Assembly (NCBI RefSeq): GCF_001682385.1 | Contig: NZ_CP016210.1 | Location: forward strand, 4,278,001-4,342,000 | DNA length: 64,000 nucleotides | DNA from: Azoarcus olearius | Lineage (GTDB): Bacteria; Pseudomonadota; Gammaproteobacteria; Burkholderiales; Rhodocyclaceae | Direction: 5' to 3' | Part shown: positions 34,322 to 55,021 of the stretch, one piece after another | Layout: every line of letters begins with the position of its first letter | Numbering within the stretch: position 1 is the stretch's first letter | The notes under the pieces: generated by a model | What the model was told of the DNA's origin: nothing | Databases searched by the model: none | What the model saw: the letters and a program-made list of their open reading frames with translations, nothing else | Position numbers and translations under genes: made by a program

Positions 34322-34705
34322 TCACGGCTGCTGCCGCCCCAGATGCATCAGGTAGGCGACCAGCTCCCAGATCTGCTCGGCGCTGAAAGCCTCGCCCCAC
34401 GGCGGCATCACCTCGGCGCCTTCGCGGCCCTTGCTGATGGTTTCGAACACCTGCGCCGGCACCAGGTCTTCGCGGCCCTTGAAGTCCGGCGCGCGGCCGC
34501 CGACGCCCTCGAAGCCGTGGCAATAGCCGGCGCAGGTCTTGTTGAAGCGCTTGCCGCCGGCGGTGATGCGGGCTTCGTCGGCAAGGTCGAAGGGCGCGGC
34601 GGCCAGCGTGCCCGCGGCGCCGGCCGGCTTGGGCGGCGGCGCCACCGCATGGCAGAGGCCGGCGGCGAACAGCAGGATGGTCGGCAGGATGTGTGCGATC
34701 TGCAT
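34322..34705 (-). CDS. Small exported cytochrome c with CX3CH heme motif
   Basis: 127 residues with a signal peptide (about 1-20). The heme-attachment motif reads CAGYCH (residues 58-63), with three residues between the cysteines instead of two. A Met axial ligand is likely at residue 100 (AEVMPPWG). The fold otherwise resembles the small cytochromes c that accept electrons from PQQ alcohol dehydrogenases. It follows the PQQ dehydrogenase gene on the same strand by 59 bp, so it is probably that enzyme's electron acceptor. The motif is read directly from the DNA and is not a frame artefact, as both flanks are well conserved. Confidence 0.82.
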   Translation of the reverse strand: MQIAHILPTILLFAAGLCHAVAPPPKPAGAAGTLAAAPFDLADEARITAGGKRFNKTCAGYCHGFEGVGGRAPDFKGREDLVPAQVFETISKGREGAEVMPPWGEAFSAEQIWELVAYLMHLGRQQP

Positions 34706-34764: not shown

Positions 34765-36435
34765 TCAGTCGACGGTGAAGGCGATCAGCGCCGCGCCGCC
34801 GGGCAGGTCCTTGATCTCGGGGAAGGCGCCGGCGAGGAAGCCCGGCGCGTGCGAACCCAGCCCGGTCGGCACCACGATGTACTGGCGCCCGCCGGCGGCG
34901 TAGCTCACCGGCCCGCCGCGCAGGCCGGAACCGGCGTTGAAGCGCCACAGCTCCTTGCCGTCGTCGGCGTCGTAGGCGTAGATGTGGCCGTGCAGGTCGC
35001 CGGTGAACACCAGCCCGCCGGCGGTGGTCAGCACGCTGGACAGCGGCGGCATGTCGTAGCGCAGGCTCCACTTCACCTTGCCGGTGAGCGGGTCACGCGC
35101 ATCGAGCCGGCCGTGCGGCTTGTCGGCCGGCGGCGGCACCAGCTTGATCTCCTCGATGCCGAGCGACAGCGCGGACATCGCCACCAGGTTGGACGGATCG
35201 TCCTTGCCGGCCACCACCTCGTTGCACACCTCCATCGCATGCGAGTACCACAGCCCGGTCTGCGGGTTGTAGGCGCCGTGGTTCCAGCTGCGCGCGCCGA
35301 GCAGGTTGGGGCAGAACAGCTTGCGCTTGCCCGCTTCCGGGTAGATCGGGTCGATCAGCTTGCCGCTCTTGGGGTCGATGCCCTTGACCCAGTTCACGTT
35401 CTGCGCGAACTGCCAGACGTTGTGCAGGCTGCCGTCGTCCTTGTCCATGACGAAGACGAAGCCGCCCTTGTTGAGGTGCACGATGACGTCCTTGCCATCC
35501 TTCTTCACCATCAGCGCCTCGTAGGCGGAATCGAAATCCCACGAGTCGTGCGGCACTTCCTGGCGCGCCCACTTCAGCTTGCCGCTCTTGGGATCGAGCG
35601 CGAGCAGGCTGGCGGTGTACTTGTTGTCGCCCTTGCGCTCGGCGTTGTAGTAGTCGGGCGCGGCGTTGGAGGTACCGATGTAGATGGTGTCGCTGCGCGG
35701 ATCGTAGGTGCCCGGCATCCACGCGCTGCCGCCGCCGGCCTTGCGGCTGTCGCCCGGCCAGCTTGCCGGGTCGTCCTTGAGGACGTCGAAGGTCCACACC
35801 GGCTTGCCGCTGTCGGCATCCACCGCGTAGATCTTGCCCATGATCGGCTGGTCGCCGCCGGTGGTGCCGCCGAACAGCACGTTGCCGGCGAGCTGCGGCG
35901 GCGCCGAGAACAGGGCGCCGTACTGCGTCTTGAGGTCGGACAGCTGGGTGGACCACAGCTCCTTGCCGGTCTTCTGGTCGAGCGCGACGAAGCGGCCGTC
36001 GAGCGTGCCGAGGTAGACCTTGCCGCGGCCGACGGTGACGCCGCGGCTGGCGGCGGCGTAGAAGCTCTGCTTGGCGAGCGGGCTGAGCTTGGGCTCGTAG
36101 TGCCACAGCGTGGCGCCGGTGGCTGCATCCACCGCCCACACGTTGTTGTTGGCCGAGACGTAGTACAGCACGCCGTCGATCACGATCGGCGTGGCCTGCA
36201 GGCCGTGGGTGATGTTGCCCGGCTGATGCACCCAGGCCACCTTCAGGCGCTTGACGTTGTCCTTGTTGATGGCGCTGAGCGGGCTGAAGCGCCAAGCGTT
36301 GTAGCTGCGGTGGTACTGCGGCCAGTTATCCGGGTCCTCGTAGCCGGGGCCGCTCTGGGCCTGGGCGGGCACGGCGTGCAGCAGCGCGGCGGCGAGCGTG
36401 GCCAGCAGCGCGCTGGCGGTCGACATCTTGTTCAT
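34765..36435 (-). CDS. PQQ-dependent alcohol dehydrogenase, lanthanide-type active site
   Basis: 556-residue periplasmic quinoprotein with a signal peptide (1-26) and an eight-bladed propeller (WxG-like repeats such as GATLWHYEP and GKELWST). Catalytic Asp300 lies in HDSWDFD (296-302), where Asp302 matches the extra Asp of lanthanide-dependent XoxF/PedH enzymes. Asn257 (GTSN) fits the metal site; the usual metal Glu seems to be Asp195. The vicinal Cys pair of methanol and ethanol dehydrogenases is replaced by AAASRG (127-132). It oxidises an alcohol or diol, passing electrons to the adjacent cytochrome c. No heme domain is fused. Substrate unproven. Confidence 0.85.
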   Translation of the reverse strand: MNKMSTASALLATLAAALLHAVPAQAQSGPGYEDPDNWPQYHRSYNAWRFSPLSAINKDNVKRLKVAWVHQPGNITHGLQATPIVIDGVLYYVSANNNVWAVDAATGATLWHYEPKLSPLAKQSFYAAASRGVTVGRGKVYLGTLDGRFVALDQKTGKELWSTQLSDLKTQYGALFSAPPQLAGNVLFGGTTGGDQPIMGKIYAVDADSGKPVWTFDVLKDDPASWPGDSRKAGGGSAWMPGTYDPRSDTIYIGTSNAAPDYYNAERKGDNKYTASLLALDPKSGKLKWARQEVPHDSWDFDSAYEALMVKKDGKDVIVHLNKGGFVFVMDKDDGSLHNVWQFAQNVNWVKGIDPKSGKLIDPIYPEAGKRKLFCPNLLGARSWNHGAYNPQTGLWYSHAMEVCNEVVAGKDDPSNLVAMSALSLGIEEIKLVPPPADKPHGRLDARDPLTGKVKWSLRYDMPPLSSVLTTAGGLVFTGDLHGHIYAYDADDGKELWRFNAGSGLRGGPVSYAAGGRQYIVVPTGLGSHAPGFLAGAFPEIKDLPGGAALIAFTVD

Positions 36436-36470: not shown

Positions 36471-37358
36471 TCACCACGCGTAGGCGTACTTCAGGTTGAA
36501 GCTGTCGGTGGCACCGTGGGATTCGCCGCTGATGCCGCGCGAGTAGCGCACGGTGAGCGACTGGTTGCCGAAGTAGCTGAACATGACGCCCAGCCCGGCG
36601 GTGGTCTCGCGGCTGGCGGCCACCTTCACGCCGGTGGCGTGGTTGGTCCACGAACCCTGGCGTTCGTAGTCGAGCGCGATGAAGGGCTCGATGCTGTCGT
36701 TGAGCTTGTAGCCCAGGCGCTGGTTGGTGTGGAACAGCGTCGCCGGGCGCGAGTCGGCCGCGTTCGATTCGCCGAAGAACACGAAGCCGGCGTCCGCGGT
36801 GTAGCTGAAGCGCTCGAACTGGATGTCCCAGAACAGGCTGGAGAGGTTCTTCCACACGTCGCCGCCACCCACGTCCTTGTTGCCCACCGGAATCTGGAAG
36901 AAGGACTGGAAGCCGAGGGTGGAATTGGGCGTCGGCTTGTACCAGATCGCCGGGCCGGTGAGCGGGTCGCCGAGGCCGCTGTTGGAGCTGTTGGTGGCGT
37001 CGTTGCGGATGCCGACCTCGGGCAGGATCACCTCGTAGGCAAGGCCGATGTCCGGCCGCGACTCGGGCGACCAGAAGCGCACGTACTTCGACAGGCCGAC
37101 GATGGTCTGCGTCTTGGCCGCCGCGCTGCGGCGGTCGCCGCTGCCGTCCCAGGCCTTGCGGCCGTCCTGGAAGGTGGCGTACTGCACGAACACGTTGAAG
37201 GGCTTGAAGCCGACCGGCAGGTCGTACTCGTGCGGGCCGATCACGTCGAGCGTGACCTGGGCCAGTGCCGGCTGCGCCAGCGCCAGCCCGGCACACAGCG
37301 CCGCGAGCGGAAGGATGCGCGGTGCGGCACCGCGCGGACGACGGATGTTGTTGTGCAT
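36471..37358 (-). CDS. Outer-membrane protein, phenol-degradation MetA-like family
   Basis: 295 residues with a signal peptide (cleavage near LAQ-VT, residue 34) and alternating beta-strand pattern ending in an aromatic residue (YAYAW), as in outer-membrane barrels. The overall look (VGFKPFNVFVQYA, GLGDPLTGPAIWY, FFQIPVGNK) matches the MetA/SphA-type porin-like family found beside degradation genes. It probably lets the alcohol substrate cross the outer membrane. Start ATG 37358 has AGGAGAC 6 bp upstream; the longer frame to 37481 runs through the sigma-54 promoter. First gene of the operon with the PQQ dehydrogenase, 35 bp upstream of it. Confidence 0.78.
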   Translation of the reverse strand: MHNNIRRPRGAAPRILPLAALCAGLALAQPALAQVTLDVIGPHEYDLPVGFKPFNVFVQYATFQDGRKAWDGSGDRRSAAAKTQTIVGLSKYVRFWSPESRPDIGLAYEVILPEVGIRNDATNSSNSGLGDPLTGPAIWYKPTPNSTLGFQSFFQIPVGNKDVGGGDVWKNLSSLFWDIQFERFSYTADAGFVFFGESNAADSRPATLFHTNQRLGYKLNDSIEPFIALDYERQGSWTNHATGVKVAASRETTAGLGVMFSYFGNQSLTVRYSRGISGESHGATDSFNLKYAYAW

Positions 37359-37454: not shown

Positions 37455-37470
37455 TGCACTTTCGGTGCCA
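37455..37470 (-). promoter_or_regulatory. Sigma-54 promoter of the PQQ dehydrogenase operon
   Basis: Read on the minus strand, TGGCACCGAAAGTGCA has GG at -24 (37469-37468) and GC at -12 (37457-37456) with exactly 10 bp between. It matches the consensus TGGCACG-N4-TTGCW except at two positions. Transcription would start near 37444, about 86 bp before the outer-membrane protein ATG. Confidence 0.75.
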
Positions 37471-37488
37471 TCGCAGGGCACCTTTCAA

Positions 37489-37501
37489 AATCAATGACTT
37501 A
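37489..37501 (+). promoter_or_regulatory. IHF binding site
   Basis: AATCAATGACTTA matches the IHF consensus WATCAA-N4-TTR at every specified position. It lies between the minus-strand -24/-12 promoter and the activator-site cluster, where DNA bending would bring a sigma-54 activator to the polymerase. Confidence 0.65.
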
Positions 37502-37513
37502 TGACTTTCGTCG

Positions 37514-37634
37514 TGTCGCAGCCGGCGCCCGGCTGTTGCGCGCCCCCTGCGACAGGTGTCGCTCGCGCTGCGACAGTCGCAGCGGCCGCTGCAACGCCTG
37601 ACGGCGCCGGCCTCCACTCCCGGCATCTGCGACA
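37514..37634. promoter_or_regulatory. Cluster of activator (AcoR-type) binding sites
   Basis: TGTCGCA at 37514-37520; TGCGACA-GG-TGTCGC at 37548-37562; a perfect 17-bp palindrome GCTGCGACAGTCGCAGC at 37567-37583; and TGCGACA at 37628-37634. The repeated core and its position upstream of two -24/-12 promoters mark enhancer-like sites, most likely for the sigma-54 activator encoded at 45021-46994. Confidence 0.7.
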
Positions 37635-37684
37635 AACCACTGTTCTGAAAGACGTTTTCTCTGGATCACGGCCTTGCACCGCAC

Positions 37685-37700
37685 TTGGCACCGCTCTTGC
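37685..37700 (+). promoter_or_regulatory. Sigma-54 promoter of the ketol-cleavage operon
   Basis: TTGGCACCGCTCTTGC has GG at 37687-37688 and GC at 37699-37700, 10 bp apart, close to the -24/-12 consensus. Transcription would start near 37712, about 80 bp before the E1-alpha ATG. Confidence 0.8.
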
Positions 37701-37791: not shown

Positions 37792-38802
37792 ATGGAAGCG
37801 ACAGCCGAACAGCTGCTGTGGATGTACGAAAAGATGGTCGAGATCCGGGAGTACGAGGAGACCATGGCCAAGGTCTACCTCGAGGCCAAGCTCCCGCCCA
37901 AGATCCAGAAGGGGCTCGCCTTCGACATCGGCGCCGGCCCGGTGCCGGGCGAGATGCACCTGGCCGCCGGCCAGGAACCGGTGGCGGTAGGCGTGTGCGC
38001 CCACCTGCGCCGCGACGACACCGTGGTCGGCGCCCACCGCCCGCACCACTTCGCCATCGCCAAGGACGTCGACCTGAACGCGATGACCGCCGAAATGTAC
38101 GGCAAGGCCACCGGCCTGGGCCGCGGCAAGGGCGGCCACATGCACCTGTTCGACCCGGCGGTGAAGTTCTCCTGCAGCGGCATCGTCGGCGCCGGCGCGC
38201 CGCAGGCCTGCGGCGCCGCGCTGGCGGCGAAGAAACTGGGCACCGACGCGGTGGCGATCGCCTTCTTCGGCGAGGGCGCGGCCAACCAGGGCGCCTTCCA
38301 CGAGGCGCTCAACCTCGCCGCGCTGTGGAAGCTGCCGGTGGTGTTCGTGGTCGAGGACAACAAGTACGGCATCTCGGTGGAGAAGTCCGCCTCCACCGCG
38401 ATCGCCTCCAACGCCGACCGCGCCGCCGCCTACGGCATGCCGGGCGTGCTGGTGGAGAAGAACGACGCGGTGGCGGTGTTCGAAGCCGCTGGGGTGGCGG
38501 TGGCGCGCGCGCGCCGCGGCGAGGGCCCGACCCTGATCGAGGTCAAGACCGACCGCTACTACGGCCACTTCCAGGGCGACCCGGAGACCTACCGCCCCAA
38601 GGGCGAGGCCAAGGAGCTGCGCCAGCACGACCCCATCCCGACGCTCGGCGCGCTCTTGCGCAGCCGCGACCTGCTCGACGACGAAGCCGACGCCGCGCTG
38701 CGCGCCCGTGTTTCCGCGCGCGTGCAGGCCGCCTACGACTTCGGCCGCAACAGCCCCTATCCGGAACCGCAGGACGCGCTGCTGCACGTCTTCGCCGAAT
38801 GA
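37792..38802 (+). CDS. acoA: Thiamine-dependent dehydrogenase E1 alpha subunit (acetoin dehydrogenase-like)
   Basis: 336 residues. The thiamine diphosphate motif runs from GEGAANQGAFHEALNLAALW near residue 161 to EDNKYG, and the PGEMHLAAGQEPVAVG and RPHHFAIAKDVDL segments are typical of E1 alpha of acetoin, pyruvate or branched-chain complexes. With E1 beta it decarboxylates or cleaves a keto substrate and passes the acyl group to lipoyl. An insertion around KLPPKIQKGLAFDIGAGPV before the substrate loop differs from textbook AcoA, so a ketol or diketone other than acetoin is possible. First gene after the sigma-54 promoter, with a GAGGAGG ribosome site. Confidence 0.82.
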   Translation: MEATAEQLLWMYEKMVEIREYEETMAKVYLEAKLPPKIQKGLAFDIGAGPVPGEMHLAAGQEPVAVGVCAHLRRDDTVVGAHRPHHFAIAKDVDLNAMTAEMYGKATGLGRGKGGHMHLFDPAVKFSCSGIVGAGAPQACGAALAAKKLGTDAVAIAFFGEGAANQGAFHEALNLAALWKLPVVFVVEDNKYGISVEKSASTAIASNADRAAAYGMPGVLVEKNDAVAVFEAAGVAVARARRGEGPTLIEVKTDRYYGHFQGDPETYRPKGEAKELRQHDPIPTLGALLRSRDLLDDEADAALRARVSARVQAAYDFGRNSPYPEPQDALLHVFAE

Positions 38803-38818
38803 GAACCAGGAGACCCGC

Positions 38819-39856
38819 ATGAGCACGACAACGACCACCCGCCGCCTGACCATGGCGCAGGCGATCTCGGAAGCGACCGCGCAGGAAATGGCGCGCGACC
38901 CGCGCGTCTTCGTCATGGGCGAGGACGTCGGCAAGTACGGCGGCATCTTCAGCGCCACCACCGGGCTGCTCGACCAGTTCGGCCCTGAGCGCGTGATGGA
39001 CACGCCGATCTCGGAAACCGGCTTCATGGGCGCCGCGCTCGGCGCCGCCGCCGAAGGCCTGCGGCCGATCTCGGAGCTGATGTTCGTCGATTTCTTCGGC
39101 GTCTGCTTCGACCAGATCTACAACCACATCGCCAAGAACCACTACATGTCGGGCGGCGCCTGCAAGTATCCGCTCGTCATCACCACCGGCATCGGCGGCG
39201 GCTACAACGACGCCGCCCAGCACTCGCAGTGCCTGTACTCGATCTTCGCCCACGTCCCCGGCCTGAAGGTGGTGGTGCCGTCCAACGCCTACGACGCCAA
39301 GGGCCTGATGACGAGCGCGATCCGCGACGACAACCCGGTGGTCTTCCTGTACCACAAGGGCATCATGGGTTTGAGCTGGATGTCCTACTTCGAGGGCAGC
39401 ACCAACGAGGTCCCGGAAGAGCAATACACCATCCCCTTCGGCCAGGCGCGCGTGGTGCGCGAAGGCAGCGACGTCACCATCGTGACCCTGTCGCAGATGG
39501 TGCAGAAGTCGGTGCTGGCGGCGGAAAAGCTGGCCGAGGAAGGCATCTCCGCCGAGGTGCTCGACCTGCGCACCCTGGTCCCGCTCGACCGCGCCGCGGT
39601 GCTGAAGTCGGTGAAGCGCACCGGCCGCCTGCTGGTCGCCGACGAGGACTACCTGAGCTACGGCCTCTCCGGCGAGATCGCCGCGCTGGTAGCCGAGAAC
39701 ATCGACACCGTCCGCCTCAAGGCCCCGGTCCGCCGCCTCGCGGTACCCGACGTGCCGATCCCCTTCAGCCGCCCGCTGGAGAACTTCGCGATCCCGCAGG
39801 TGGAGAACATCGTCGCCAGCGTGCGCGGGCTGATGACTTTCAAGCTCGACCAGTAG
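38819..39856 (+). CDS. acoB: Thiamine-dependent dehydrogenase E1 beta subunit (acetoin dehydrogenase-like)
   Basis: 345 residues. Transketolase-like pyrimidine-binding and C-terminal domains are present: FVMGEDVGKYGGIFSATTGL near residue 30, DTPISETGFMGAALGAA near 60 and, near the C-terminus, VADEDYLSYGLSGEI. It pairs with E1 alpha to form the alpha2beta2 core. Start ATG 38819 follows AGGAGACCCGC. It lies 16 bp after E1 alpha and 210 bp before the lipoyl protein gene, a gap that contains a palindromic repeat. Confidence 0.85.
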   Translation: MSTTTTTRRLTMAQAISEATAQEMARDPRVFVMGEDVGKYGGIFSATTGLLDQFGPERVMDTPISETGFMGAALGAAAEGLRPISELMFVDFFGVCFDQIYNHIAKNHYMSGGACKYPLVITTGIGGGYNDAAQHSQCLYSIFAHVPGLKVVVPSNAYDAKGLMTSAIRDDNPVVFLYHKGIMGLSWMSYFEGSTNEVPEEQYTIPFGQARVVREGSDVTIVTLSQMVQKSVLAAEKLAEEGISAEVLDLRTLVPLDRAAVLKSVKRTGRLLVADEDYLSYGLSGEIAALVAENIDTVRLKAPVRRLAVPDVPIPFSRPLENFAIPQVENIVASVRGLMTFKLDQ

Positions 39857-39876
39857 CGCCGGCGGTTCGGCCGCCT

Positions 39877-40016
39877 GCTCCCTCCCCTTCAAGGGGAGAT
39901 GGTTTTGTCCCTCCCCCTTCAAGGGGGAGGTTAGGAGGGGGATGGGGGTAGGTTCAGCGCCGATGCCTGACCCCATCCCCACCCCAGCCCTCCCCTTGAA
40001 GGGGAGGGAGCAAACC
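39877..40016. repeat. Palindromic intergenic repeat, copy B
   Basis: Arms nearly identical to copy A (30163-30265) occur at 39909-40016, around a different centre. The left flank also carries GCTCCCTCCCCTTCAAGGGG followed by AG (39877-39898), the exact inverse of the right end CTCCCCTTGAAGGGGAGGGA plus GC. The element lies inside the operon, between the E1 beta and lipoyl protein genes, so the transcript must pass through a long hairpin. Confidence 0.8.
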
Positions 40017-40066
40017 GGCTCCCCCACCCAATCCCCAATCAATCATCACTCCCCAGGAGACACAAC

Positions 40067-40312
40067 ATGACCGAAATCATCCTCGACGACGCGGTGTGGG
40101 CCGATGTCGATGAAGGCACCGAAGCCCTGCTGCAGGAATGGCAGGTGAAGGAAGGCGACAGCGTGGCCGCGGGCCAGGTGCTGGCGGTGGCCGAGCTGGT
40201 GAAGACCAGCCACGAGATCTTCGCGCCCTCGGCCGGCCGCATCGCCAAGCTCAACGTGGCCGAGCAGGACACCTTCGGCCGCGGCGCGGTGCTCGCGCTG
40301 CTGGAGGCCTGA
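40067..40312 (+). CDS. Free-standing lipoyl carrier protein
   Basis: 81 residues forming only one biotinyl/lipoyl domain. The hairpin turn ELVKTSHE puts the modified Lys at residue 46, with the usual EGDSVAAGQVLAVAE before it and IFAPSAGRIAKL after it. In most acetoin and 2-oxo-acid dehydrogenases this domain is fused to the E2 catalytic core; here the core is the separate gene at 40316, three bases downstream. It should carry the acyl group from E1 to E2 as a mobile protein. The ribosome site AGGAGACA at 40054-40061 is strong. Confidence 0.85.
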   Translation: MTEIILDDAVWADVDEGTEALLQEWQVKEGDSVAAGQVLAVAELVKTSHEIFAPSAGRIAKLNVAEQDTFGRGAVLALLEA

Positions 40313-40315
40313 GCC

Positions 40316-41029
40316 ATGGCTGCGAGCGTGGCGGCTGAAACCGCCTCCCCCGCGGCGGCGCCGGAACGCCGCACGGTGCCGCTGACCGGTCTGCGCGGCG
40401 CCATCGCCCGCAACATGGGCCAGGGCTGGCAGGTGCCGCGGGTGGCGCACTCGGTGGACGTGGATCTCACCCGCGTCGAAGCGCTGCGCGCCGAGCGCGC
40501 CGCCGCCGGCGACAAGCTCAGCGTGAATGCCTTCGTGCTGCACGCGGTGGCGCAGGCGCTGCGCGCCCATCCGCGGCTGAACGCGCTGATGCGCGAGAAG
40601 GAAGTCGAGCTGGTCGACGACATCAACATCGGCGTCGCGGTGGCGCTGGACGACGGCCTGATGGTGCCGGTGATCCGCCAGGCGGACACCAAGCCGGTGG
40701 CGGCGCTGGCGGCGGAAACCCGCCAGCTCGCCGAGGGCGCCCGCGCCGGCGCGCTCACCGGCGGCGCCTACCAGCGCGGCACCTTCACCGTCACCAACCT
40801 CGGCAGCACGCCGGTGGACCGCTTCAGCCCGATCATCAACCCGCCGCAGGTGGCCATCCTCGGCGTCGGCCGCACCCGCCAGCAGGCGGTGGTGAAGGAC
40901 GGCGCCATCGTCGCCGCGCCGGTGGTCAACCTGACCCTGGTGTTCGACCACCGCGCGGTGGACGGCTACCCGGCGGCGCTCTTCCTCGGCGAGATCGCGC
41001 GCCGGCTGGAACAGGCGGAGTTCGACTGA
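40316..41029 (+). CDS. acoC: E2 acyltransferase catalytic core lacking a lipoyl domain
   Basis: 237 residues comprising only the 2-oxo-acid dehydrogenase acyltransferase domain. LTGLRGAIARNMGQGWQVPR near residue 21 opens the fold, DINIGVAVALDDGLMVPVIR is near 103, and the catalytic DHRAVDG motif is near 210. No lipoyl or E1/E3-binding domain precedes it, unlike usual 370-550-residue E2 proteins. It would transfer the acyl group from the separate lipoyl protein to CoA. Start ATG 40316 is 3 bp after the lipoyl gene stop; its end overlaps the ligase start by one base (TGATG). Confidence 0.85.
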   Translation: MAASVAAETASPAAAPERRTVPLTGLRGAIARNMGQGWQVPRVAHSVDVDLTRVEALRAERAAAGDKLSVNAFVLHAVAQALRAHPRLNALMREKEVELVDDINIGVAVALDDGLMVPVIRQADTKPVAALAAETRQLAEGARAGALTGGAYQRGTFTVTNLGSTPVDRFSPIINPPQVAILGVGRTRQQAVVKDGAIVAAPVVNLTLVFDHRAVDGYPAALFLGEIARRLEQAEFD

Positions 41030-41799
41030 TGCCCGCCGCCGCCCTCGCCCCTTCGACCCAGGGCCGCCGCCTGACGACCAGCGGCAGCGCGCTGACGCTG
41101 GCGCGCGCCGCCGCCGAGCAGGACTGGAATACCCGCCAGCTCGCCACGCCGGTGACCGCGCCGCGGGTGCGGGTATGGACCTACCCGGCGCCCGGCGTGG
41201 TGTTCGGCTGCGCGCAGGCGGCGCTGCACGAGGAAGCGGCGCGGGCGGCGCGCACCGACTGCGAACTGGTGCAGCGCCGCGCCGGCGGCGGTGCGGTGCT
41301 GACCGGGCCGTGGATGCTGTCGTCCTCGGTGGTGCTGCCCCCGGACCACCGCCTGCTGGCGGGTGGCACCGTCAGCAGCTACCGCTGGCTGGGCGTGCTG
41401 CATGCCGGCCTGCTGCGCGACTTCGGCATGCCGGCCCACGCGCTGGCGCCGGACGAACTCGCCCGCCGCACCAGCGACCCGGCGCTCGGCTGGGCCTGCT
41501 TCGGCGGCCTGTCGCCGTGGGAGGTGATCGCCGACGGCCGCAAGCTTGTCGGGCTGGCCCAACTGCGCCGCCAGCACGGCGTGTTGCTCACCACCGGCAC
41601 CCTGCTCTACCGCCCGGAGTGGTCGCTGCTGTGCGACGCGCTCGGGCGCCCGGCGGACGACATCGCCCGGCTCGACGCCGCCACCACCTCCTGCGCCGAA
41701 CTGCTCGGCACCGCGATGCATATCGAGACGCTGGCCGACGGCCTGCAGCAGATGCTGGCCGACGTGCTCGGCGAGCTGGAGGAGGACGACCGCGCCTGA
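41029..41799 (+). CDS. Lipoate-protein ligase family protein
   Basis: 256 residues of the LplA/LipB biotin-lipoyl ligase fold. The conserved RRAGGGAVLTG lies near residue 83 and the Lys-containing segment GRKLVGLAQLRRQ near 168, both used for lipoyl-AMP binding. Its place directly after the split E2 genes indicates it lipoylates the small carrier at 40067. It is shorter than E. coli LplA (about 340) and may be a transferase that takes lipoyl from another donor. Overlap of TGATG with the E2 gene suggests coupled translation. Confidence 0.8.
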   Translation: MPAAALAPSTQGRRLTTSGSALTLARAAAEQDWNTRQLATPVTAPRVRVWTYPAPGVVFGCAQAALHEEAARAARTDCELVQRRAGGGAVLTGPWMLSSSVVLPPDHRLLAGGTVSSYRWLGVLHAGLLRDFGMPAHALAPDELARRTSDPALGWACFGGLSPWEVIADGRKLVGLAQLRRQHGVLLTTGTLLYRPEWSLLCDALGRPADDIARLDAATTSCAELLGTAMHIETLADGLQQMLADVLGELEEDDRA

Positions 41800-41864: not shown

Positions 41865-42446
41865 ATGAGCAACACAAGCCCGCGCGCCCCGATGCGCGTC
41901 GTCGAAAAACGCATCACGCTGAGCCGCCGCGGCTTCCTGAAGGGCGGCGGCATGGCCGCCCTCGGCGTCGGGGCGCTGTCCACCGCCACCCTGATGACCC
42001 CGGCGCGCGAGGCGCTGGCGGCCAACTTCAAGGTGCTCGGCGCCGCCACCGGCAAGACCCTGCTGGTGCTGGCGCGCGACATCTTCCCGCACGACCGCAT
42101 CTCCGACCGCTACTACCTGCAGGCGCTCGAACCGCTGGAAGCGCAGGCCGCCAAGGACGACAAGCTGAAGGCCCTGCTGACCGAGGGCACGGCCGCGCTC
42201 GACCGCCTGGCCAAGCTGCGCTTCAAGAAGGCCTACACCGACCTCGCCAAGGAGACCGACCGCCTCAGCCTGCTCTACGTGATCGAGCACGGCGCCTTCT
42301 TCCAGAAGGTGAAGGGCCACCTCGTCACCGGCTTCTACGACAACAAGGCGGTGTGGCCGCTGTTCGGCTACGAGGGTTCGTCCTGGGAAAAGGGCGGCTA
42401 CATCAACCGCGGCTTCGACGACATCGACTGGCTGGACGGCGCCTGA
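41865..42446 (+). CDS. Tat-exported gluconate 2-dehydrogenase subunit 3-like protein
   Basis: 193 residues. A twin-arginine signal SRRGFLKGG near residue 18 is followed by a hydrophobic stretch and PAREALA cleavage region. The mature part (LLVLARDIFPHDRISDRYYL and FPH/WP-type C-terminal segments) matches the small subunit of membrane-bound gluconate/sorbitol-type dehydrogenases. In that family it exports the cofactor-loaded flavoprotein by riding together through Tat. The GMC gene follows after 92 bp and lacks its own signal, which fits. AAGGAGACAA gives a strong ribosome site. Confidence 0.8.
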   Translation: MSNTSPRAPMRVVEKRITLSRRGFLKGGGMAALGVGALSTATLMTPAREALAANFKVLGAATGKTLLVLARDIFPHDRISDRYYLQALEPLEAQAAKDDKLKALLTEGTAALDRLAKLRFKKAYTDLAKETDRLSLLYVIEHGAFFQKVKGHLVTGFYDNKAVWPLFGYEGSSWEKGGYINRGFDDIDWLDGA

Positions 42447-42538: not shown

Positions 42539-44113
42539 ATGAGCGCGAAATTCTCGCTGGACGACGACAGCGTGGTGGTGATCGTCGGCTCCGGCGCCGG
42601 CGGCGGCACGCTGGCCGACGAACTGACCAAACGCGGCGTGAACGTCGTGATCCTCGAAGCCGGCAAGCACTACACCCAGGCCGATTTCGAGAACGACGAG
42701 TGGGCGATGTTCAAGAAGATCTCGTGGCTGGACAAGCGCATCTCGGCCGGCGGCTGGCATCACACCGAGACCTATCCCAACCTGCCGGCCTGGATCGTCA
42801 AGGGCGTGGGCGGCTCGACCATGCACTTCTCGGGGCTGGCGCTGCGCTTCCTGCCGCACGACTTCAAGACCCGCAGCACCTATGGCGAGGTCAAGGGCGC
42901 CAACGTGATCGACTGGCCGATCAGCTACGAGGAGCTGGCGCCCTACTACGACATCGCCGAACGCAAGATGGGCGTGGCCGGCACCAAGGCCAGCGGCCTG
43001 CCGGAGATGCCGCCCAACAACCACTACAAGGTGATCGCCGCCGGCGCCAGGAAGGTGGGCTACAAGGACATCAGCCGCCCGGTCGCCTCCAACACCCGCG
43101 TCAATGACGGCCGCCCGGCCTGCCAGCAGATCGGCTTCTGCATGCAGGGCTGCAAGATCGGCGCCAAGTGGTCGACGCTGTACTCCGAGATTCCGCGCGC
43201 CATCGAAACCGGCCGCGCCGAGCTGCGCCCGCAGAGCATGGTGCTGAAGATCGAGCACGACAAATCCGGCAAGGTCAGCGGCGTGCTCTACGCCGACAAG
43301 GACGGCCGCCAGCACCTGCAGAAGGCGCGCGTGGTGTGCGTGGCCGGCAACTCGATCGAGTCGCCGCGGCTGCTGCTCAATTCCGCCTCCAGCATGTTCC
43401 CCAACGGCCTGGCGAACAGCTCCGGCCAGGTCGGCAAGAACTACATGAACCACACCACCGCCGCCGCGATCGCGATCCACAAGGGGCCGGTGTACATGTA
43501 CCGCGGCTTCGACATCGCCGCGGTGATCTCCGACGAGGCGCAGTTGAACCCGGACCGCGGCTTCCTCGGCGGCTACCACCTGGAAGGGCTGGCGCTGCAC
43601 CTGCCCTTCACTGCCGCCTTCATGAAGCCGGGCGGCTGGGGCCGCGAGGTGACTTCCGCGCTGGAGCAGTACGACCACATGAGCTGCGTGTGGGTGTGCG
43701 GCGAGGACATGCCGCAGGAAGAGAACGGCATCACCCTGCATCCGACCGAGAAGGACCAGTACGGCCTGCCCATCCCCATCGTCACCAAGACCGACCACAC
43801 CAACGACGCGGCGATGCGCCGCCACGGCCTGGCGCAGTGGCGCAAGGTGTCCGAGGCGGTGGGCGCGACCCGCGTGATCGACATGCCGCCCTACCCCGCC
43901 AGCCACAACATGGGCACCAACCGCATGAGCGCCAACGCCCGCGACGGCGTGCTCAACAAGTGGGGCCAGGCGCACGACATCAAGAACCTGTTCGTCTCCG
44001 ACGGCAGCCAGTTCACCTCCAGCTCGGCCGCCAACCCGACGCTGACCATCGTCGCGCTGGCGGTGCGCCAGGCGGAATACATCGCCGGCGCCATGCAGCG
44101 GCGCGAACTCTGA
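42539..44113 (+). CDS. GMC family flavoprotein oxidoreductase
   Basis: 524 residues with FAD-binding GSGAGGGTLADEL (residues about 16-28) and the GMC C-terminal domain, where SHNMGTNRM near 458 and AANPTLTI near 500 carry the active-site His and Asn. It resembles the large subunit of gluconate/fructose/sorbitol-type dehydrogenases and choline dehydrogenases. It should oxidise an alcohol group on a sugar-like or diol substrate, acting as the catalytic partner of the Tat-exported subunit at 41865. The usual multiheme cytochrome c subunit is not in the cluster. Substrate unknown. Confidence 0.85.
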   Translation: MSAKFSLDDDSVVVIVGSGAGGGTLADELTKRGVNVVILEAGKHYTQADFENDEWAMFKKISWLDKRISAGGWHHTETYPNLPAWIVKGVGGSTMHFSGLALRFLPHDFKTRSTYGEVKGANVIDWPISYEELAPYYDIAERKMGVAGTKASGLPEMPPNNHYKVIAAGARKVGYKDISRPVASNTRVNDGRPACQQIGFCMQGCKIGAKWSTLYSEIPRAIETGRAELRPQSMVLKIEHDKSGKVSGVLYADKDGRQHLQKARVVCVAGNSIESPRLLLNSASSMFPNGLANSSGQVGKNYMNHTTAAAIAIHKGPVYMYRGFDIAAVISDEAQLNPDRGFLGGYHLEGLALHLPFTAAFMKPGGWGREVTSALEQYDHMSCVWVCGEDMPQEENGITLHPTEKDQYGLPIPIVTKTDHTNDAAMRRHGLAQWRKVSEAVGATRVIDMPPYPASHNMGTNRMSANARDGVLNKWGQAHDIKNLFVSDGSQFTSSSAANPTLTIVALAVRQAEYIAGAMQRREL

Positions 44114-44174: not shown

Positions 44175-44789
44175 ATGACGCTACGCCCCCTGCTCCACCG
44201 CTTGCTCGCCGCCACCGCCGGCGCCGCCGTCCTCGCCAGTGCCGCCGTGCCCGCCCACGCCGCGCCGATTCCCGGCATGCAGGGCATGCAGCACATCGGC
44301 ATCACGGTGCCCAACCTCAAGGAAGCGGTGAACTTCTTCAAGGATGTGCTCGGCTGCGAACCGTCCTTCACCTTCGGCGCCTTCAAGTTCGAGGACGACT
44401 GGATGACGCGCCACCTCAACGTTCATCCGCGCGCCGCCATCAGCGACTTCCAGATGGTCCGCTGCGGCAACGGCACCAACCTGGAGGTGTTCGAATACAC
44501 CGCGCCCGACCAGAACCGCCGCGGTCCGCGCAACAGCGATATCGGCGGCCATCACCTGGCCTTCTACGTGGACGACATGAACGCCGCCGTGGCCGCACTC
44601 AAGGCCAAGGGCGTGCAGGTGCTGGATACGCCGAGCACCTTCACCGACGGCCCGGCCGCCGGCCTCACCTGGGTGTATTTCCTCGCACCCTGGGGCCTGC
44701 AGCTGGAGCTGGTGAGCGCGCCCAAGGGCATGGCCCACGAGAAGGACCTGAAGCGCAAGCTGTGGGATCCGCGCTTCCCCGAAAAGTAA
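44175..44789 (+). CDS. Exported VOC family protein
   Basis: 204 residues with a signal peptide (about 1-31, cut after AHA). The mature protein is a vicinal-oxygen-chelate fold of two beta-alpha-beta-beta-beta units. Likely metal ligands are visible: His in MQHIGITV, Glu in NLEVFEY, His in GHHLAFYV and Glu in LQLELVS. Typical members are glyoxalases, dioxygenases or fosfomycin-type enzymes. A periplasmic location is unusual, and the role may be to isomerise or protect the alpha-hydroxyketone or dicarbonyl produced by the neighbouring dehydrogenases. This role is inferred only from context. The last gene before the operon terminator. Confidence 0.75.
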   Translation: MTLRPLLHRLLAATAGAAVLASAAVPAHAAPIPGMQGMQHIGITVPNLKEAVNFFKDVLGCEPSFTFGAFKFEDDWMTRHLNVHPRAAISDFQMVRCGNGTNLEVFEYTAPDQNRRGPRNSDIGGHHLAFYVDDMNAAVAALKAKGVQVLDTPSTFTDGPAAGLTWVYFLAPWGLQLELVSAPKGMAHEKDLKRKLWDPRFPEK

Positions 44790-44890: not shown

Positions 44891-45020
44891 CGATTGAGCC
44901 GGCAGCGAGGGTGATTTAACCTTCGATCAAGACATGCAGAGACCGATCCACGGTCCGCGTCCGCGCGGCGGCAGCTCACCGGCATCCAGCGGTGACGACC
45001 GGCCCGCAGGAGGAGACGAG

Positions 45021-46994
<1,974 letters not shown>

Positions 46995-47132: not shown

Positions 47133-49205
47133 GTGGCAGATCAATCGCAATTCGAACTCATCACCCCGCTGGGCAGCGGCGTGCTCGTATTCCAGGCGCT
47201 CGCCGCCGACGAGGCGCTGTCGCAGGTCAGCGAATTCGAGATCGACTGCCTCTCCGACAAGACCGACATCAACCTCGACGACATCCTCGGCAAGCAGCTC
47301 AGCCTGCGGGTGATGCTGCCCACCGGCGGCAAGCGCTACTTCAGCGGCTACGTCACCCGCTTCGCCCACACCGGCACCCAGGGCCGCTACCAGACCTACC
47401 GCGCGAGCGTGCGGCCGTGGCTGTGGTTCCTCGGCCGCACCGCCGACTGCCGCATCTTCCAGTCGCGCACGGTGCCCGACATCGTCAAGCAGGTCTTCTC
47501 CGAACACGGCGTCGCCGACTTCCGCAACGCGCTCAGCGGCAGCTACCGCACGCGCGACTACTGCGTGCAGTACCGCGAGACCGACCTCGCCTTCGTCAGC
47601 CGGCTGCTGGAAGAAGAGGGCATCTATTACTTCTTCGAGCACGACGAGAACAAGAACACCCTGGTGCTGGCGGACGCCTACGCCGCCCACACCAGCACCG
47701 CCGGCTACGAGGAGATCGAGTTCGTCGAGAACCGCCAGGGCGGCGGCGACGAGCTGGGCTTCGTCAGCCAGTGGCAGTTCGAGCGCCAGGTGATGCCGGG
47801 CAAGGTCATGCTGCGCGACTACGACTTCACCAAGCCCTCGGTCGGGCTGGAAGCCTCGGCGGTGGTGCCGCGCGAACACGACGAGGGCAAGCACGAGGTG
47901 TTCGACTACCCCGGCGAGTTCGACCAGGTGGCCGACGGCCGCCACTACGCCAAGGTGCGCGTCGATGAGCTGCACGCGCAGTTCGAGCTGTCCCGCGCGC
48001 GCAGCAGCGCCCGCGGCCTGGCGGTGGGCCACCTGTTCAAGCTCGCCGGTCACGCCCGCCGCGACCAGAACCGCGAGTACCTGATCACCGCGGCGCAGAC
48101 CCGCGTGCGCGCCGAAGGGCGGGAATCCGAAGCGGGTGCGGGCAGCCAGTTCGAGTGCCACTTCAGCGCCCTCAACAGCCGCCAGGATTACCGCCCGCCC
48201 CGGCTGACCCCGCGCCCGCAGGTGAAGGGGCCGCAGACCGCGGTGGTGGTCGGCCCGTCCGGCAACGAGATCTACACCGACGAATACGGCCGCGTGAAGG
48301 TGCAGTTCCACTGGGACCGCTACGGCACCAAGGACGAGCACAGCTCGTGCTGGATCCGCGTCTCCCATCCCTGGGCGGGCAAGAACTGGGGCTTCATCGC
48401 CATCCCGCGCATCGGCCAGGAGGTGATCGTCGAATTCCTCGAGGGCGATCCCGACCAGCCGATCATCACCGGCCGGGTCTACAACGCCGAGCAGATGCCG
48501 CCGTACGCGCTGCCCGACAACATGACCCAGACCGGCATCAAGACGCGCTCCACGCTCGGCGGCGGCACCGACAACTTCAACGAGATCCGCTTCGAGGACA
48601 AGAAGGGCGAAGAGCAGCTCTTCATCCACGCCGAGAAGAACCAGGACATCGAGGTCGAGAACGACGAGACCCACTGGGTCGGCCACGACCGCACCAAGAA
48701 CATCGACCACAACGAGACGGTCACCGTCGGCAACGACCGTACCGAGTCGGTCGGCAACAACGAAACCATCAGCATCGGCAACAACCGCACCGAATCGGTG
48801 GGCGCCAACGAAACCATCTCGGTCGGCGGCAACCGCGCCGAGGACGTCGGCCAGAACGAAACCGTCAGCATCGGCAAGGACCGCAGCGAGAGCATCGGCA
48901 ACAACGACGCCCACGACGTCGCCAAGAGCCAGACCATCGCGATCGGCGAAAACCAGACGCTGGAGGTGGGCAAGGCGCGCTCCACCACGGTCGGCGATGA
49001 CGACAAGCTGCAGGTCGGCAAGAAACTGGTGATCGAGGCCGGCGACGAGATCACCATCAAGACCGGCAGCGCCAGCATCACCATGAAGAAGGACGGCACG
49101 ATCCAGATCAAGGGCAAGGACATCACCATCAAGGGCGACGGCCAGATCGGCATCAAGGCCGCTTCCGACGTGGTGATCAAGGGCGCCAAGATCTCCGAGA
49201 ACTGA
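47133..49205 (+). CDS. vgrG: T6SS tip protein VgrG
   Basis: 690 residues with a GTG start. The gp27/gp5-like body is recognisable by RYFSGYVTRFAHTG, VQYRETDLAFVSRLLEEEGI near residue 155 and YGRVKVQFHWDRYG with WIRVSHPWAGKNWGFIAIPR near 395-430. The C-terminal ~200 residues consist of about ten degenerate repeats of the form xxVGNNETIS-xGNNRTES, which form the triple-stranded beta-helix of the needle tip. The protein ends in ITIKGDGQIGIKAASDVV and has no extra effector domain. It opens the T6SS effector region and probably carries the downstream PAAR-like protein and effector. Confidence 0.93.
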   Translation: MADQSQFELITPLGSGVLVFQALAADEALSQVSEFEIDCLSDKTDINLDDILGKQLSLRVMLPTGGKRYFSGYVTRFAHTGTQGRYQTYRASVRPWLWFLGRTADCRIFQSRTVPDIVKQVFSEHGVADFRNALSGSYRTRDYCVQYRETDLAFVSRLLEEEGIYYFFEHDENKNTLVLADAYAAHTSTAGYEEIEFVENRQGGGDELGFVSQWQFERQVMPGKVMLRDYDFTKPSVGLEASAVVPREHDEGKHEVFDYPGEFDQVADGRHYAKVRVDELHAQFELSRARSSARGLAVGHLFKLAGHARRDQNREYLITAAQTRVRAEGRESEAGAGSQFECHFSALNSRQDYRPPRLTPRPQVKGPQTAVVVGPSGNEIYTDEYGRVKVQFHWDRYGTKDEHSSCWIRVSHPWAGKNWGFIAIPRIGQEVIVEFLEGDPDQPIITGRVYNAEQMPPYALPDNMTQTGIKTRSTLGGGTDNFNEIRFEDKKGEEQLFIHAEKNQDIEVENDETHWVGHDRTKNIDHNETVTVGNDRTESVGNNETISIGNNRTESVGANETISVGGNRAEDVGQNETVSIGKDRSESIGNNDAHDVAKSQTIAIGENQTLEVGKARSTTVGDDDKLQVGKKLVIEAGDEITIKTGSASITMKKDGTIQIKGKDITIKGDGQIGIKAASDVVIKGAKISEN

Positions 49206-49209
49206 GTCC

Positions 49210-50244
49210 ATGCTGCAGGTCGTCAACCCCACCCCGCTGCCGGCGGTCCTGTCGGTATTCGCCAACCCGGCGGGCGTCGAGTGCGCCTACGCGGCGGTGA
49301 AGGCGAGCTTCGACGTCTCCTCGGGCGAGCCGCGCCTGGCCGCGCGCCAGGCCAACTTCCTGGCCACCGACGTGTATTGGGGCGACCCGGCAACCAGCAG
49401 CCTGCGCGCCGCCGCCGACCTGACGCTGGTGAAGCCGGGCACCGACATCCTGCTGATCGGCCGCGCCATCGCCCCTGCCGGCGCGGTGAGCGCCATGGAT
49501 GTCCGCCTGCAGGTCGGCCCCGTCAGCCGCAGCCTGCGCGTGTTCGGCGACCGCCGCTGGGTGCGCCAGGAGCAAGGCTGGGCGATCTCGTCGCCGCAGC
49601 CCTTCGAGCGGATGCCGCTGCGCTGGGAGCTGGCCTTTGGCGGCTGCGGTGCGCAGACCGGCGGCACGCCGCCGGAATACGACGCACGCAACCCGATCGG
49701 GCGCGGCTTCATCGGCAGCCGCGAAGAGGACTTCAGCGACCGACCGCTGCCCAACATCGAAGACCCGGGCCAGCTCATCGCCACGCCGGCGGACCGCCCC
49801 GCGCCGGCCGGCTGGGCGCCGATTCCGCCCCACTGGCAGCCGCGCCAGGGCTGGGGCGGCACCTACGATGCCAATTGGCAGAGCCAGCGCGCGCCCTACC
49901 TGCCCCACGACTTCGACCCCCGCTTCTTCAACGTCGCCCCGCCCGGGCTGGTGGCGCCGGGCCATCTCGAGGGCGGCGAGGCCGTGTGCGTCGAAGGATG
50001 CACGGCGAGCGCGCCGCTGCGCTTCGAACTCCCGCGGCTCGACATCGGCCTGACCTGGGATTTCGACGGCCGCCGCATCCCTGCGCAGGCCCGGCTCGAC
50101 ACCGTGCTGATCGAGCCCGACCAGGCCCGGTTGCAGATGGTGTGGCGCGCCGAGCTGGCGGTCGACAAGCGGCTCACCCGGCTGCGGCAGGTAGCGGTGA
50201 ATGTGCGCGCCGCCGCCAGCCAGGCGGCGGTCATCGGACGCTGA
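49210..50244 (+). CDS. DUF2169 T6SS adaptor-like protein
   Basis: 344 residues; no signal peptide. The N-terminal NPTPLPAVLSVFANPAGVEC and the later segments PFERMPLRWELAFGGCG and YDARNPIGRGF are characteristic of the DUF2169 family found between vgrG and effector genes. Members act in loading particular effectors on VgrG. It starts 4 bp after vgrG and its stop lies 4 bp before the next gene, so cotranslation is likely. Confidence 0.85.
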   Translation: MLQVVNPTPLPAVLSVFANPAGVECAYAAVKASFDVSSGEPRLAARQANFLATDVYWGDPATSSLRAAADLTLVKPGTDILLIGRAIAPAGAVSAMDVRLQVGPVSRSLRVFGDRRWVRQEQGWAISSPQPFERMPLRWELAFGGCGAQTGGTPPEYDARNPIGRGFIGSREEDFSDRPLPNIEDPGQLIATPADRPAPAGWAPIPPHWQPRQGWGGTYDANWQSQRAPYLPHDFDPRFFNVAPPGLVAPGHLEGGEAVCVEGCTASAPLRFELPRLDIGLTWDFDGRRIPAQARLDTVLIEPDQARLQMVWRAELAVDKRLTRLRQVAVNVRAAASQAAVIGR

Positions 50245-50248
50245 CATC

Positions 50249-51286
50249 GTGTCGATCGCACTGTTCTCCGCCGCCTGCATCACCCCGGTCGGGCTCAGCC
50301 TGCCGGAGACCGCGGCCGCCACGCGCGCGCGGGTGGCCGGCCTGCGCGCCAGCCACTGGCGCGACCGCCGCGACAACGCCTTCGTGCTCGGCCGCGTGCC
50401 GGCCGCCGGCCTGCCGGCACTCTCGCCGCAGCTCCAGCATGCCGGCGTGCAGGCGCGCGAGGCGCGCATGCTGCGGATGGCCCACGCCGCGCTCGCCGAA
50501 GCGCTGGCGCTCGTCCCCGCGGTGGAGCGCCCGATACCGCTGCTGCTCGGGCTGCCCGAACATCACACCCAGGCTGCGCTGGAACCGGCCGCCTTCCTCG
50601 CCCGGCTCGCCATCCAGTCCGGCGCACCGCTGGACCGCAGCCGCAGCGTCGCCGCGCCGCTCGGCCGTGCCGCCGGGCTGATGGCGTTCAACCAGGCCGC
50701 CGCGCTGCTCGATGACGACGCCACGCCCTGGGTGCTCGTCGGCGGCGTGGACAGCCTCGTCGATCTCTACGTGCTCAACACGCTGGACCAGCAGGGCCGC
50801 ATCCGCAACGAGCGCAACAGCGACGGTTTCACGCCCGGCGAAGGCGCGGCCTTCCTGCTGCTCGGCAGGCAGGGGGGCGGGCTTGCCCCGATCGCCCGCA
50901 TCGCCGCCTGCGGCCACGGCCACGAGGCGGGTCACCTGTATTCGGACGTGCCGTATCTGGGCGAAGGGCTGGCCGCGCTGTTCGGCAAGGTGCTGCAGCC
51001 GCCCCCGCCGGCGCCGATCGGCACGCTCTACGCGTCCTTCAACGGCGAGCGCTACTGGGCGCGCGAACTCGGCGTCGCCCGCCTGCGCCATGCGGCGGCG
51101 TTTTCGGACGCGGTGCAGATCGAACACCCCGCAGAATGCTTCGGCGACCTCGGCGCGGCACATGGCCCGGTGCTGGCCGCGCTTGCCGCGCACGCGCTGG
51201 CGAACGGATACCGGCCGGGCCCGGCGCTGGTCTATGCGTCGTCCGACCACGGCAGCCGCGGCGCCGTCGTGCTGGAGCGGGCATGA
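50249..51286 (+). CDS. Beta-ketoacyl-synthase-fold protein lacking catalytic residues
   Basis: 345 residues, GTG start. The thiolase fold shows through WVLVGGVDSLVDLYVLNTL near residue 161 and FTPGEGAAFLLLG near 194, both conserved in ketosynthases. The nucleophile position, expected around SVAAPLGRAAG (133-143), has no Cys, and the two active-site His motifs are replaced by SFNGERYW and FGDLGAAHG. Condensing activity is therefore unlikely. Related proteins occur in other T6SS clusters beside DUF2169, where they may help deliver effectors. No acyl carrier protein gene is nearby. Confidence 0.75.
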   Translation: MSIALFSAACITPVGLSLPETAAATRARVAGLRASHWRDRRDNAFVLGRVPAAGLPALSPQLQHAGVQAREARMLRMAHAALAEALALVPAVERPIPLLLGLPEHHTQAALEPAAFLARLAIQSGAPLDRSRSVAAPLGRAAGLMAFNQAAALLDDDATPWVLVGGVDSLVDLYVLNTLDQQGRIRNERNSDGFTPGEGAAFLLLGRQGGGLAPIARIAACGHGHEAGHLYSDVPYLGEGLAALFGKVLQPPPPAPIGTLYASFNGERYWARELGVARLRHAAAFSDAVQIEHPAECFGDLGAAHGPVLAALAAHALANGYRPGPALVYASSDHGSRGAVVLERA

Positions 51287-51308
51287 AACCACAGGCCGGG
51301 AGGCAGAC

Positions 51309-52316: not shown

Positions 52317-52326
52317 ACGACATCGC

Positions 52327-52881
52327 ATGGAGCACCGCATGTACTACGTCATGACCTGCCTGAGCCCCGCCCAGGGCTACCTGGCCACCCTCGACTACGA
52401 CGACTCCGCCGACCCGGACTTCCTGCGCAGCTGGATGTCCGGCGACCGCTTCGACGTGCCGCCGCCGACGCCGCTGGTGCTGACGCGCGAGACGGCACCC
52501 GACACGGTGTTGGCGGAGCTGTGGCAGTCGCCGGTCACGCTGATGAGCAAGCGCCTGCACGCCGCGCTGCTCGCCGCCGGCGTGTCCAACCTCGACATCT
52601 ACCCGGCCGAAATCCACGACCCGGCGCAGGGCCTCGTGCATGACGACTACGTGGCCTTCAACCTCATCGGCCGCATCGCCGCGGCCGACAGCCTGCGCCG
52701 CCACGACGACGTGCTGATCAGCGCCCCGGAGATTTCCGCCGCGCGGGTCGACGGCGCGCTGATGTTCCGGCTCGCCGAAGCGGTCAATACCATCGTGGTC
52801 CATGACTCGGTGAAACAGGCCATCGAAGCGGCCGGCATCGACACGCTGACCTTCATCGACCCCGCCGACTGGACCGGCTGA
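52327..52881 (+). CDS. Predicted immunity protein, Imm11/DUF1629-like
   Basis: 184 residues, acidic overall. The layout (MYYVMTCLSPAQGYL at the N-terminus, LHAALLAAGVSNLDIYPAEI in the middle and VHDSVKQAIEAAGIDTLTF near the C-terminus) matches the DUF1629/Imm11 family of toxin-neutralising proteins. It begins 10 bp after the AHH effector and likely binds and inhibits it in the producing cell. Family match is by eye. Confidence 0.68.
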   Translation: MEHRMYYVMTCLSPAQGYLATLDYDDSADPDFLRSWMSGDRFDVPPPTPLVLTRETAPDTVLAELWQSPVTLMSKRLHAALLAAGVSNLDIYPAEIHDPAQGLVHDDYVAFNLIGRIAAADSLRRHDDVLISAPEISAARVDGALMFRLAEAVNTIVVHDSVKQAIEAAGIDTLTFIDPADWTG

Positions 52882-52970
52882 GCCACGGCCGCCGACGTCC
52901 GTCCATCACGCCTTGCACCTGCCGGACAAGCCTGCTGCAATCCGTCCCATCCGCCTCCCGGGGTCAGCCC

Positions 52971-53348: not shown

Positions 53349-53357
53349 GACGAAGCC

Positions 53358-53786: not shown

Positions 53787-53790
53787 GTCC

Positions 53791-55002: not shown

Positions 55003-55021
55003 ACACTACGGAGAAAGTCAG

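Follow-up and report, generated by a model that had tools for sequence, protein, structure and literature searches.

Divergent sigma-54 promoters under the control of one activator are already established for several systems, namely hyc/hyp, zraP/zraSR, nifJ/nifH and orp1/orp2 (the papers cited here and below are represented by excerpts of their text). For instance, the divergent nifJ and nifH promoters of Klebsiella are both controlled by NifA and have their UASs in one intergenic region, in which, however, nifJ has UAS2 and UAS3 and nifH has UASnifH (PMC6710252). In Desulfovibrio vulgaris, the divergent sigma-54 promoters of orp1/orp2 are co-activated by one bEBP (DVU2106), and functional IHF sites are located between the bEBP sites and the promoters (PMC3897727). 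However, each of these promoters has bEBP and IHF sites of its own (PMC3897727), and the genes are unrelated to those described below. The enterobacterial hycA and hypA promoters, which also diverge and respond to one sigma-54 activator, FhlA (PMC3844500), are about 114 bp apart as computed from the Salmonella coordinates in that paper. Here, the activator and its site, CATTTCGTACGAAATG, differ from those of the present locus (PMC4987338), and the two promoters may share their site, too. ZraR controls the divergent sigma-54 promoters of zraP and zraSR (PMC4987338) and binds the spacer between them (PMC8249747). ZraR is, however, a two-component regulator, whose site is listed as not known in PMC4987338 and may likewise be shared. 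The hycA/hypA and zraP/zraSR arrangements are also described in PMC8743547. Finally, acetoin catabolic operons combine an AcoR-type activator, sigma-54 dependence and genes for an acetoin dehydrogenase (PMC3543383; PMC6615313), and an AcoR motif has been reported for Clostridiales (PMC6615313). Sites of BmoR have been reported as well (PMC8899819).

The locus described here lies in a window of 64 kb, i.e. the whole stretch of DNA that was analysed, which corresponds to positions 4278001-4342000 of a single-contig genome of 4.45 Mb. Two operons diverge between positions 37358 and 37792 of the window. The minus-strand operon begins with a gene for an outer-membrane protein of the Phenol_MetA_deg family (36474..37358), followed by genes for a PQQ-dependent alcohol dehydrogenase (34765..36435; best NCBIfam model PQQ_enz_alc_DH, below its cut-off) and a small protein taken as a cytochrome c (34322..34705), the translation of which contains CAGYCHG, a variant of CXXXCH. 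For the plus-strand operon, family searches identified the E1 alpha (37792..38802) and E1 beta (38819..39856) subunits of a 2-oxoacid/acetoin dehydrogenase-like complex, a lipoyl-domain protein and an E2 acyltransferase core that are encoded by two separate genes (40067..41029), a lipoate-protein ligase-like protein (41029..41799), a protein that matches Gluconate_2-dh3 weakly, with a score under the curated cut-off (41865..42446), a GMC oxidoreductase (42539..44113) and a glyoxalase/VOC-family protein (44175..44789). The E1 beta protein scores 358 bits with an NCBIfam subfamily model for PDH E1 beta, above the cut-off of 321, and E1 alpha stays below both NCBIfam PDH E1 alpha cut-offs. Thus, in contrast to the acetoin operons mentioned above, the substrate assignment is putative, and to name acetoin is a guess based on the type of activator and the context. 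Among named relatives, Parazoarcus communis SWub3 has the closest E1 alpha protein (97%), within a collection that may omit the window's own genome. A palindromic repeat element, about 110 bp long, lies between the E1 beta and the lipoyl gene (39857-40062) and has 93 BLAST matches around the genome, with many places counted on both strands. At the equivalent position, the compared relatives except L035 have only tens of bases.

The last gene of the plus operon starts 144 bp after the VOC gene on the same strand and encodes an AcoR-type sigma-54 activator with an AAA+ domain and a Fis-type HTH (44934..46994; PF00158 and PF02954 over cut-off), which we propose as the ligand of the enhancer described below. 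Given its location behind the plus operon, positive feedback is possible. The gap between the two genes contains a weak terminator-like hairpin, which is within the chance rate of such matches. The loop contacting sigma-54 reads GTFTGG in the window activator and not GAFTGA. Among 53 loci, exact GAFTGA was found in 23; five variants occur elsewhere, with GTFTGG in six loci. Since the exact sequence is present in only 355 of 490 EBPs (PMC6615313, excerpt), exactness is not required. No GAF family was detected in the N-terminus of the activator at an E-value of 0.001, and three paralogues align across most of this part. The genome contains 23 matches to the activator, itself included, which mostly cover the ATPase domain. 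The recognition helices of the AcoR proteins linked to the operon mostly read [CSAN]R[AS]T-YR-M, whereas those of the three paralogues compared end in YRK[ILV]. In one of the paralogues (L145), the helix is similar (ARATLYRKL), and cross-regulation by paralogous activators would be possible. Downstream of the activator gene, T6SS genes encode a VgrG-like protein (Phage_GPD, Gp5), a DUF2169 protein and an FHA/T6SS_FHA_C protein (47133-56911).

The region between the operons carries two -24/-12 elements, TGGCACCGAAAGTGC on the minus strand (37456..37470; predicted start at about 37444) for the porin/PQQ-ADH operon and TGGCACCGCTCTTGC on the plus strand (37686..37700; predicted start at about 37712) for the E1 alpha-AcoR operon. 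A check of the sequence found both elements where the initial annotation had placed them, each with GG-N10-GC and resembling the consensus TGGCAC-N5-TTGC. That annotation had described the promoters as face-to-face in its title and as facing away from each other in its text; they diverge, and the latter wording is the correct one. The genome has two Sigma54_DBD matches, i.e. rpoN is present. In the 64-kb window, single promoter matches with up to two mismatches are at chance level (17 found, 37 expected), and an isolated match carries no meaning there. The strict form TGGCAC-N5-TTGC occurs at 28 places in the genome, compared with 10 for the backward control. When the sequence was subjected to 100 dinucleotide shuffles, with a home-made promoter score of at least 14 (all promoter scores are ad hoc), a divergent promoter pair 120-420 bp apart appeared in one shuffle and a pair enclosing the dyad described below in none. 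Thus, the combination of a divergent pair and an enclosed dyad exceeds chance.

Conservation is a stronger test than shuffling for the elements of the control region. For this purpose, the window was aligned with four close loci of relatives (L035, L063, L066 and L071). In this five-locus alignment, 13 of 15 bases of the minus promoter and 11 of 15 bases of the plus promoter are invariant. A plus-strand sigma-54 promoter was found at the expected place in all 48 loci with an AcoR gene in view. The minus promoter was counted in 62 loci having a plus promoter and sufficient upstream DNA, of which the window, L035, L047, L048 and L053 were marked by hand as carrying divergent genes. At a score of 13.0, a laxer threshold that was known beforehand to include L071, it was present in 20/20 loci with divergent porin/ADH genes and in 13/42 loci lacking them; at 13.7, the counts were 19/20 and 7/42. 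These numbers bear on the idea that one promoter is vestigial, with only one operon depending on sigma-54 and the other match decaying. Decay would suit the minus promoter, which reads GTGC where the plus promoter has TTGC in all five aligned loci and scores just 13.0 in L071. However, its invariance exceeds that of the plus promoter, and it accompanies the divergent porin/ADH genes in all 20 loci, which makes a vestigial promoter very improbable.

Between the promoters, the initial annotation had counted four TGCGACA/TGTCGCA elements. All of them are present (TGTCGCA at 37514 on the plus strand; TGCGACA at 37548, 37569 and 37628), but those at 37514 (2/7 bases invariant) and 37628 (1/7) are not conserved, which rules out four equal elements. 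TGTCGCA is not enriched in the window either (11 found, 12.3 expected). Judged from the sequence, the enhancer is better described as one 16-bp dyad of the form TGCGACA-NN-TGTCGC with two flanking half-sites. The central dyad, TGCGACA-GG-TGTCGCT (37548..37563), would be the site of an AcoR-type bEBP dimer. The left half-site, TGTTGCG on the plus strand (37534..37540), would form the right arm of a site that is degenerate and lies 23 bp to the left of the dyad, and the right half-site, TGCGACA on the plus strand (37569..37575), begins 21 bp from the dyad start. The 15-mer core of the dyad occurs at a single place in the 4.45-Mb genome, 37548-37563, and a dyad was found in 3 of 100 dinucleotide shuffles. 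In the five-locus alignment, 11/16 bases of the dyad, 9/14 bases of 37569-37582 and 10/25 bases of 37521-37545 are invariant; the latter stretch includes the left half-site, with CTGTTGC (37533-37539) being fully invariant. The stretch from the enhancer to the plus promoter has only 14 invariant bases out of 103.

UASs of bEBPs are typically dyad sites located about 80-200 bp upstream of the promoter. In all five aligned loci, the distance from the dyad to the minus promoter is 93 bp and that to the plus promoter is 137-139 bp, both within this range, and the dyads of the family are mostly in helical phase. Thirty-three of 39 dyad-dyad distances below 60 bp (dyads with up to three mismatches) are 21-23, 30-33 or 43-44 bp, and the remaining six are 9, 13 or 14 bp (Rayleigh R of 0.69 at 10.5 bp). 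The mean motif profile of 41 non-redundant loci, kept out of 56, was scanned for periods from 8 to 13.5 bp, of which 10.5 bp was the strongest; it peaks at +21 and -21, with further peaks at 9 and 12 bp that reflect self-overlap of the motif and feed the 10.5-bp period, too. Over 25 divergent regions, 31 dyads with up to two mismatches were found, compared with 0.04 expected from base shuffles. No wider regulon is visible, since such dyads occur at 21 places in the genome and at 20 in the backward control. At three of the 20 other places (L001, L003 and L004), a sigma-54 scan reaching up to 500 bp detected one weak site, at L001 (score 13.0). A plasmid search with the intergenic DNA gave no match.

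The initial annotation had suggested looking for the motif in homologous regions. We used the best 80 of 204 relatives from a scan of species genomes with an E1 alpha alignment, and an AcoR gene, defined by at least 43% identity inside the fetched stretch, was in view in 48 of them. Dyads with up to two mismatches were found in 43 of the 48 AcoR-linked loci. By contrast, among 17 loci without AcoR but with at least 9 kb of downstream DNA, three have the plus promoter and one has the dyad. The other 15 of the 32 AcoR-less loci, with downstream DNA shorter than 9 kb, did not enter this comparison (9 with the plus promoter, 7 with the dyad). The nominal Fisher values for the association of AcoR with the plus promoter and the dyad are about 1e-11 and 5e-10, respectively, and overstate the case because the genomes are related and the counts are not independent. 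The dyads could also be bound by a different regulator, either a repressor or a global factor, and the five AcoR loci without a dyad at two mismatches would be in line with this. However, the dyads track AcoR (43/48 vs 1/17), and their mostly helical phasing is what is expected for the assembly of a multimer; binding by a regulator other than the linked AcoR is thus quite improbable.

Twenty-five divergent loci were picked, and their layouts sorted into classes, by eye, allowing up to three mismatches for dyads and up to one for IHF matches. Ten loci that have a match on the minus strand and lack a recognised divergent porin/ADH gene were excluded (L081, L087, L095, L096, L109, L112, L115, L118, L119 and L124). 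The five aligned loci form class C, in which the promoters are 230-232 bp apart and enclose one dyad (with three mismatches in L071). In class A (L047, L048, L053, L069, L070, L073, L074 and L075; 347-379 bp), there are two blocks; the one closer to the minus promoter has dyads 68-103 bp from this promoter and is frequently weak, with 2-3 mismatches. The separate UASs of nifJ and nifH (PMC6710252, excerpt) resemble class A rather than the single block of the window. Class B (L064, L067, L068 and L077; 303-348 bp) has one block, and an IHF match lies 49-53 bp away from the plus promoter; a second IHF match in L077 overlaps the minus promoter of this locus. Class D comprises Massilia relatives (139-161 bp) and Rugamonas (284-285 bp) with two close dyads, which in the Massilia relatives lie within one cluster, and no IHF match. 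No IHF match accompanies the single block or cluster of L079, L100 and L102; L079 was grouped with class B on the tree despite this, and the other two stand outside the classes. Thus, a single enhancer block or cluster, which had been called unusual at the outset, is not rare in this family and is also found in relatives from Aromatoleum and Thauera. A tree of E1 alpha plus E1 beta, built from 82 rows with a quick method, has single-block loci in several of its parts and two-block loci in just one, which they share with the single-block loci L077 and L079. A derivation of the window's single block by deletion from a two-block ancestor was considered, and its direction is unsupported by the tree. 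The tree does not settle which layout is older; the single block would, if anything, be the more economical ancestor.

The consensus of IHF is WATCAANNNNTTR. As the initial annotation had reported, the promoters enclose a full match, AATCAATGACTTA, on the plus strand (37489..37501), which is located between the enhancer and the minus promoter. A WATCAR version of the motif has also been described (PMC8899819, excerpt). An exact site appeared in 6 of 100 shuffles; in the alignment, 10/13 of its bases are invariant, and all five class C loci have an exact site, always 34 bp away from where the minus element starts. A site with one mismatch is present at the corresponding place near the minus promoter in 7/8 class A loci; 6/8 have an IHF match 42 bp from the plus promoter, and 5/8 have matches on both sides. 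Over the 25 divergent regions, 27 IHF matches were found, compared with 1.64 expected from base shuffles, and the genome has four Bac_DNA_binding matches, i.e. IHF/HU-family genes are present. Since the site of the window lies solely between the block and the minus promoter, it would help only the porin side as placed. On the plus side of the window block, the best IHF-like site has two mismatches (37664), and none of the five class C loci has a match with up to one mismatch on this side, which leaves looping to the plus promoter unexplained.

In class A, the presence of the same motif beside the minus promoter makes it very probable that this activator also targets the minus operon. In class C, there is only one conserved block, which must then serve both operons. 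It is therefore likely, with a probability of about 0.77, that sigma-54 control is bidirectional in this region, with one AcoR-bound block driving both promoters. Of what had originally been proposed, two divergent promoters with one block between them is upheld by conservation and by the co-occurrence with AcoR, but the count of four elements and the label "unusual" are not. Alternatively, the block might serve the plus promoter only. A different activator or activation from solution would then account for the minus promoter, and its sharing of a block with the plus promoter would be a coincidence of a compact spacer. The 23 activator matches in the genome would offer candidates for such a role, and some bEBPs act on promoters with a deleted UAS (PMC8899819, excerpt). 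However, class A has additional dyads with this motif close to the minus promoter, and the distance between the minus promoter and the dyad is fixed in 5/5 class C loci; both argue against this alternative, which we regard as unlikely.

From the sequence, its conservation, the spacing, the co-occurrence with AcoR and the presence of rpoN and IHF/HU-family genes, we infer how binding, looping and the use of the shared block by both promoters may proceed. The AcoR-type activator, whose gene closes the plus operon, would bind the central dyad and would also occupy the flanking half-sites about two helical turns away, giving a footprint of about one hexamer, i.e. three dimers. Indeed, the three enhancer sites of NorR serve as a scaffold for a higher-order oligomer, most likely a hexamer (PMC2941729, excerpt), and by analogy the three dimer sites would fit one hexamer. 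To the left, a loop of about 110 bp from the enhancer centre to the predicted minus start would be bent by IHF at 37489-37501, and to the right, a loop of about 155 bp to the predicted plus start would form without an IHF site. Once bound, the activator could contact the sigma-54 RNA polymerase that awaits it at each of the two promoters. Both operons may thereby respond to a single inducer, which could be acetoin, a diol or some related alcohol, with the minus side providing an outer-membrane channel and periplasmic alcohol oxidation and the plus side providing the 2-oxoacid/acetoin dehydrogenase-like complex, oxidoreductases and the activator itself. A tentative extension, which we consider possible but doubtful, is that the two promoters compete for one hexamer-sized enhancer. 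The one-sided IHF site would bias the loop towards the porin/alcohol oxidation promoter, the level of IHF would set the ratio of the operons, and relatives with a second block and a second IHF site would escape the competition.

Among the matches listed in literature searches, mostly to non-subscription papers, a single shared block with a one-sided IHF site was not found. Likewise, text searches for the TGCGACA motif returned nothing recognisable among the matches listed, and the dyad was not found there as a site of the AcoR-type family. The dyad provides a predicted binding motif for a family of AcoR-type regulators that many Betaproteobacteria possess. Moreover, the family offers a natural series with one shared enhancer or two, and with IHF matches on the left, the right, both sides or neither. 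This series makes enhancer sharing testable in bacteria, i.e. whether one enhancer drives two promoters at once or chooses between them.

The divergent genes themselves are variable. Homologues of the PQQ-ADH were found in 28 of 199 searched genomes, including the window's own, and 9 of these 28 stretches have the divergent layout, with a 5-kb gap in L059; L041, L043, L051, L055 and L059 are contigs of loci named elsewhere and were not counted twice. L063, L066 and L071 have kept the porin and both promoters and lack the adjacent PQQ-ADH of the window; they have a distant PQQ-like match (26-30%) in the opposite direction. The first divergent gene also varies: in L064, L067, L068, L073, L080 and L103, other ORFs of about 400-445 aa take its place and the minus promoter match is kept. 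These proteins match Porin_4 in L064 and L073 and have no Pfam match in L068, L080 and L103.
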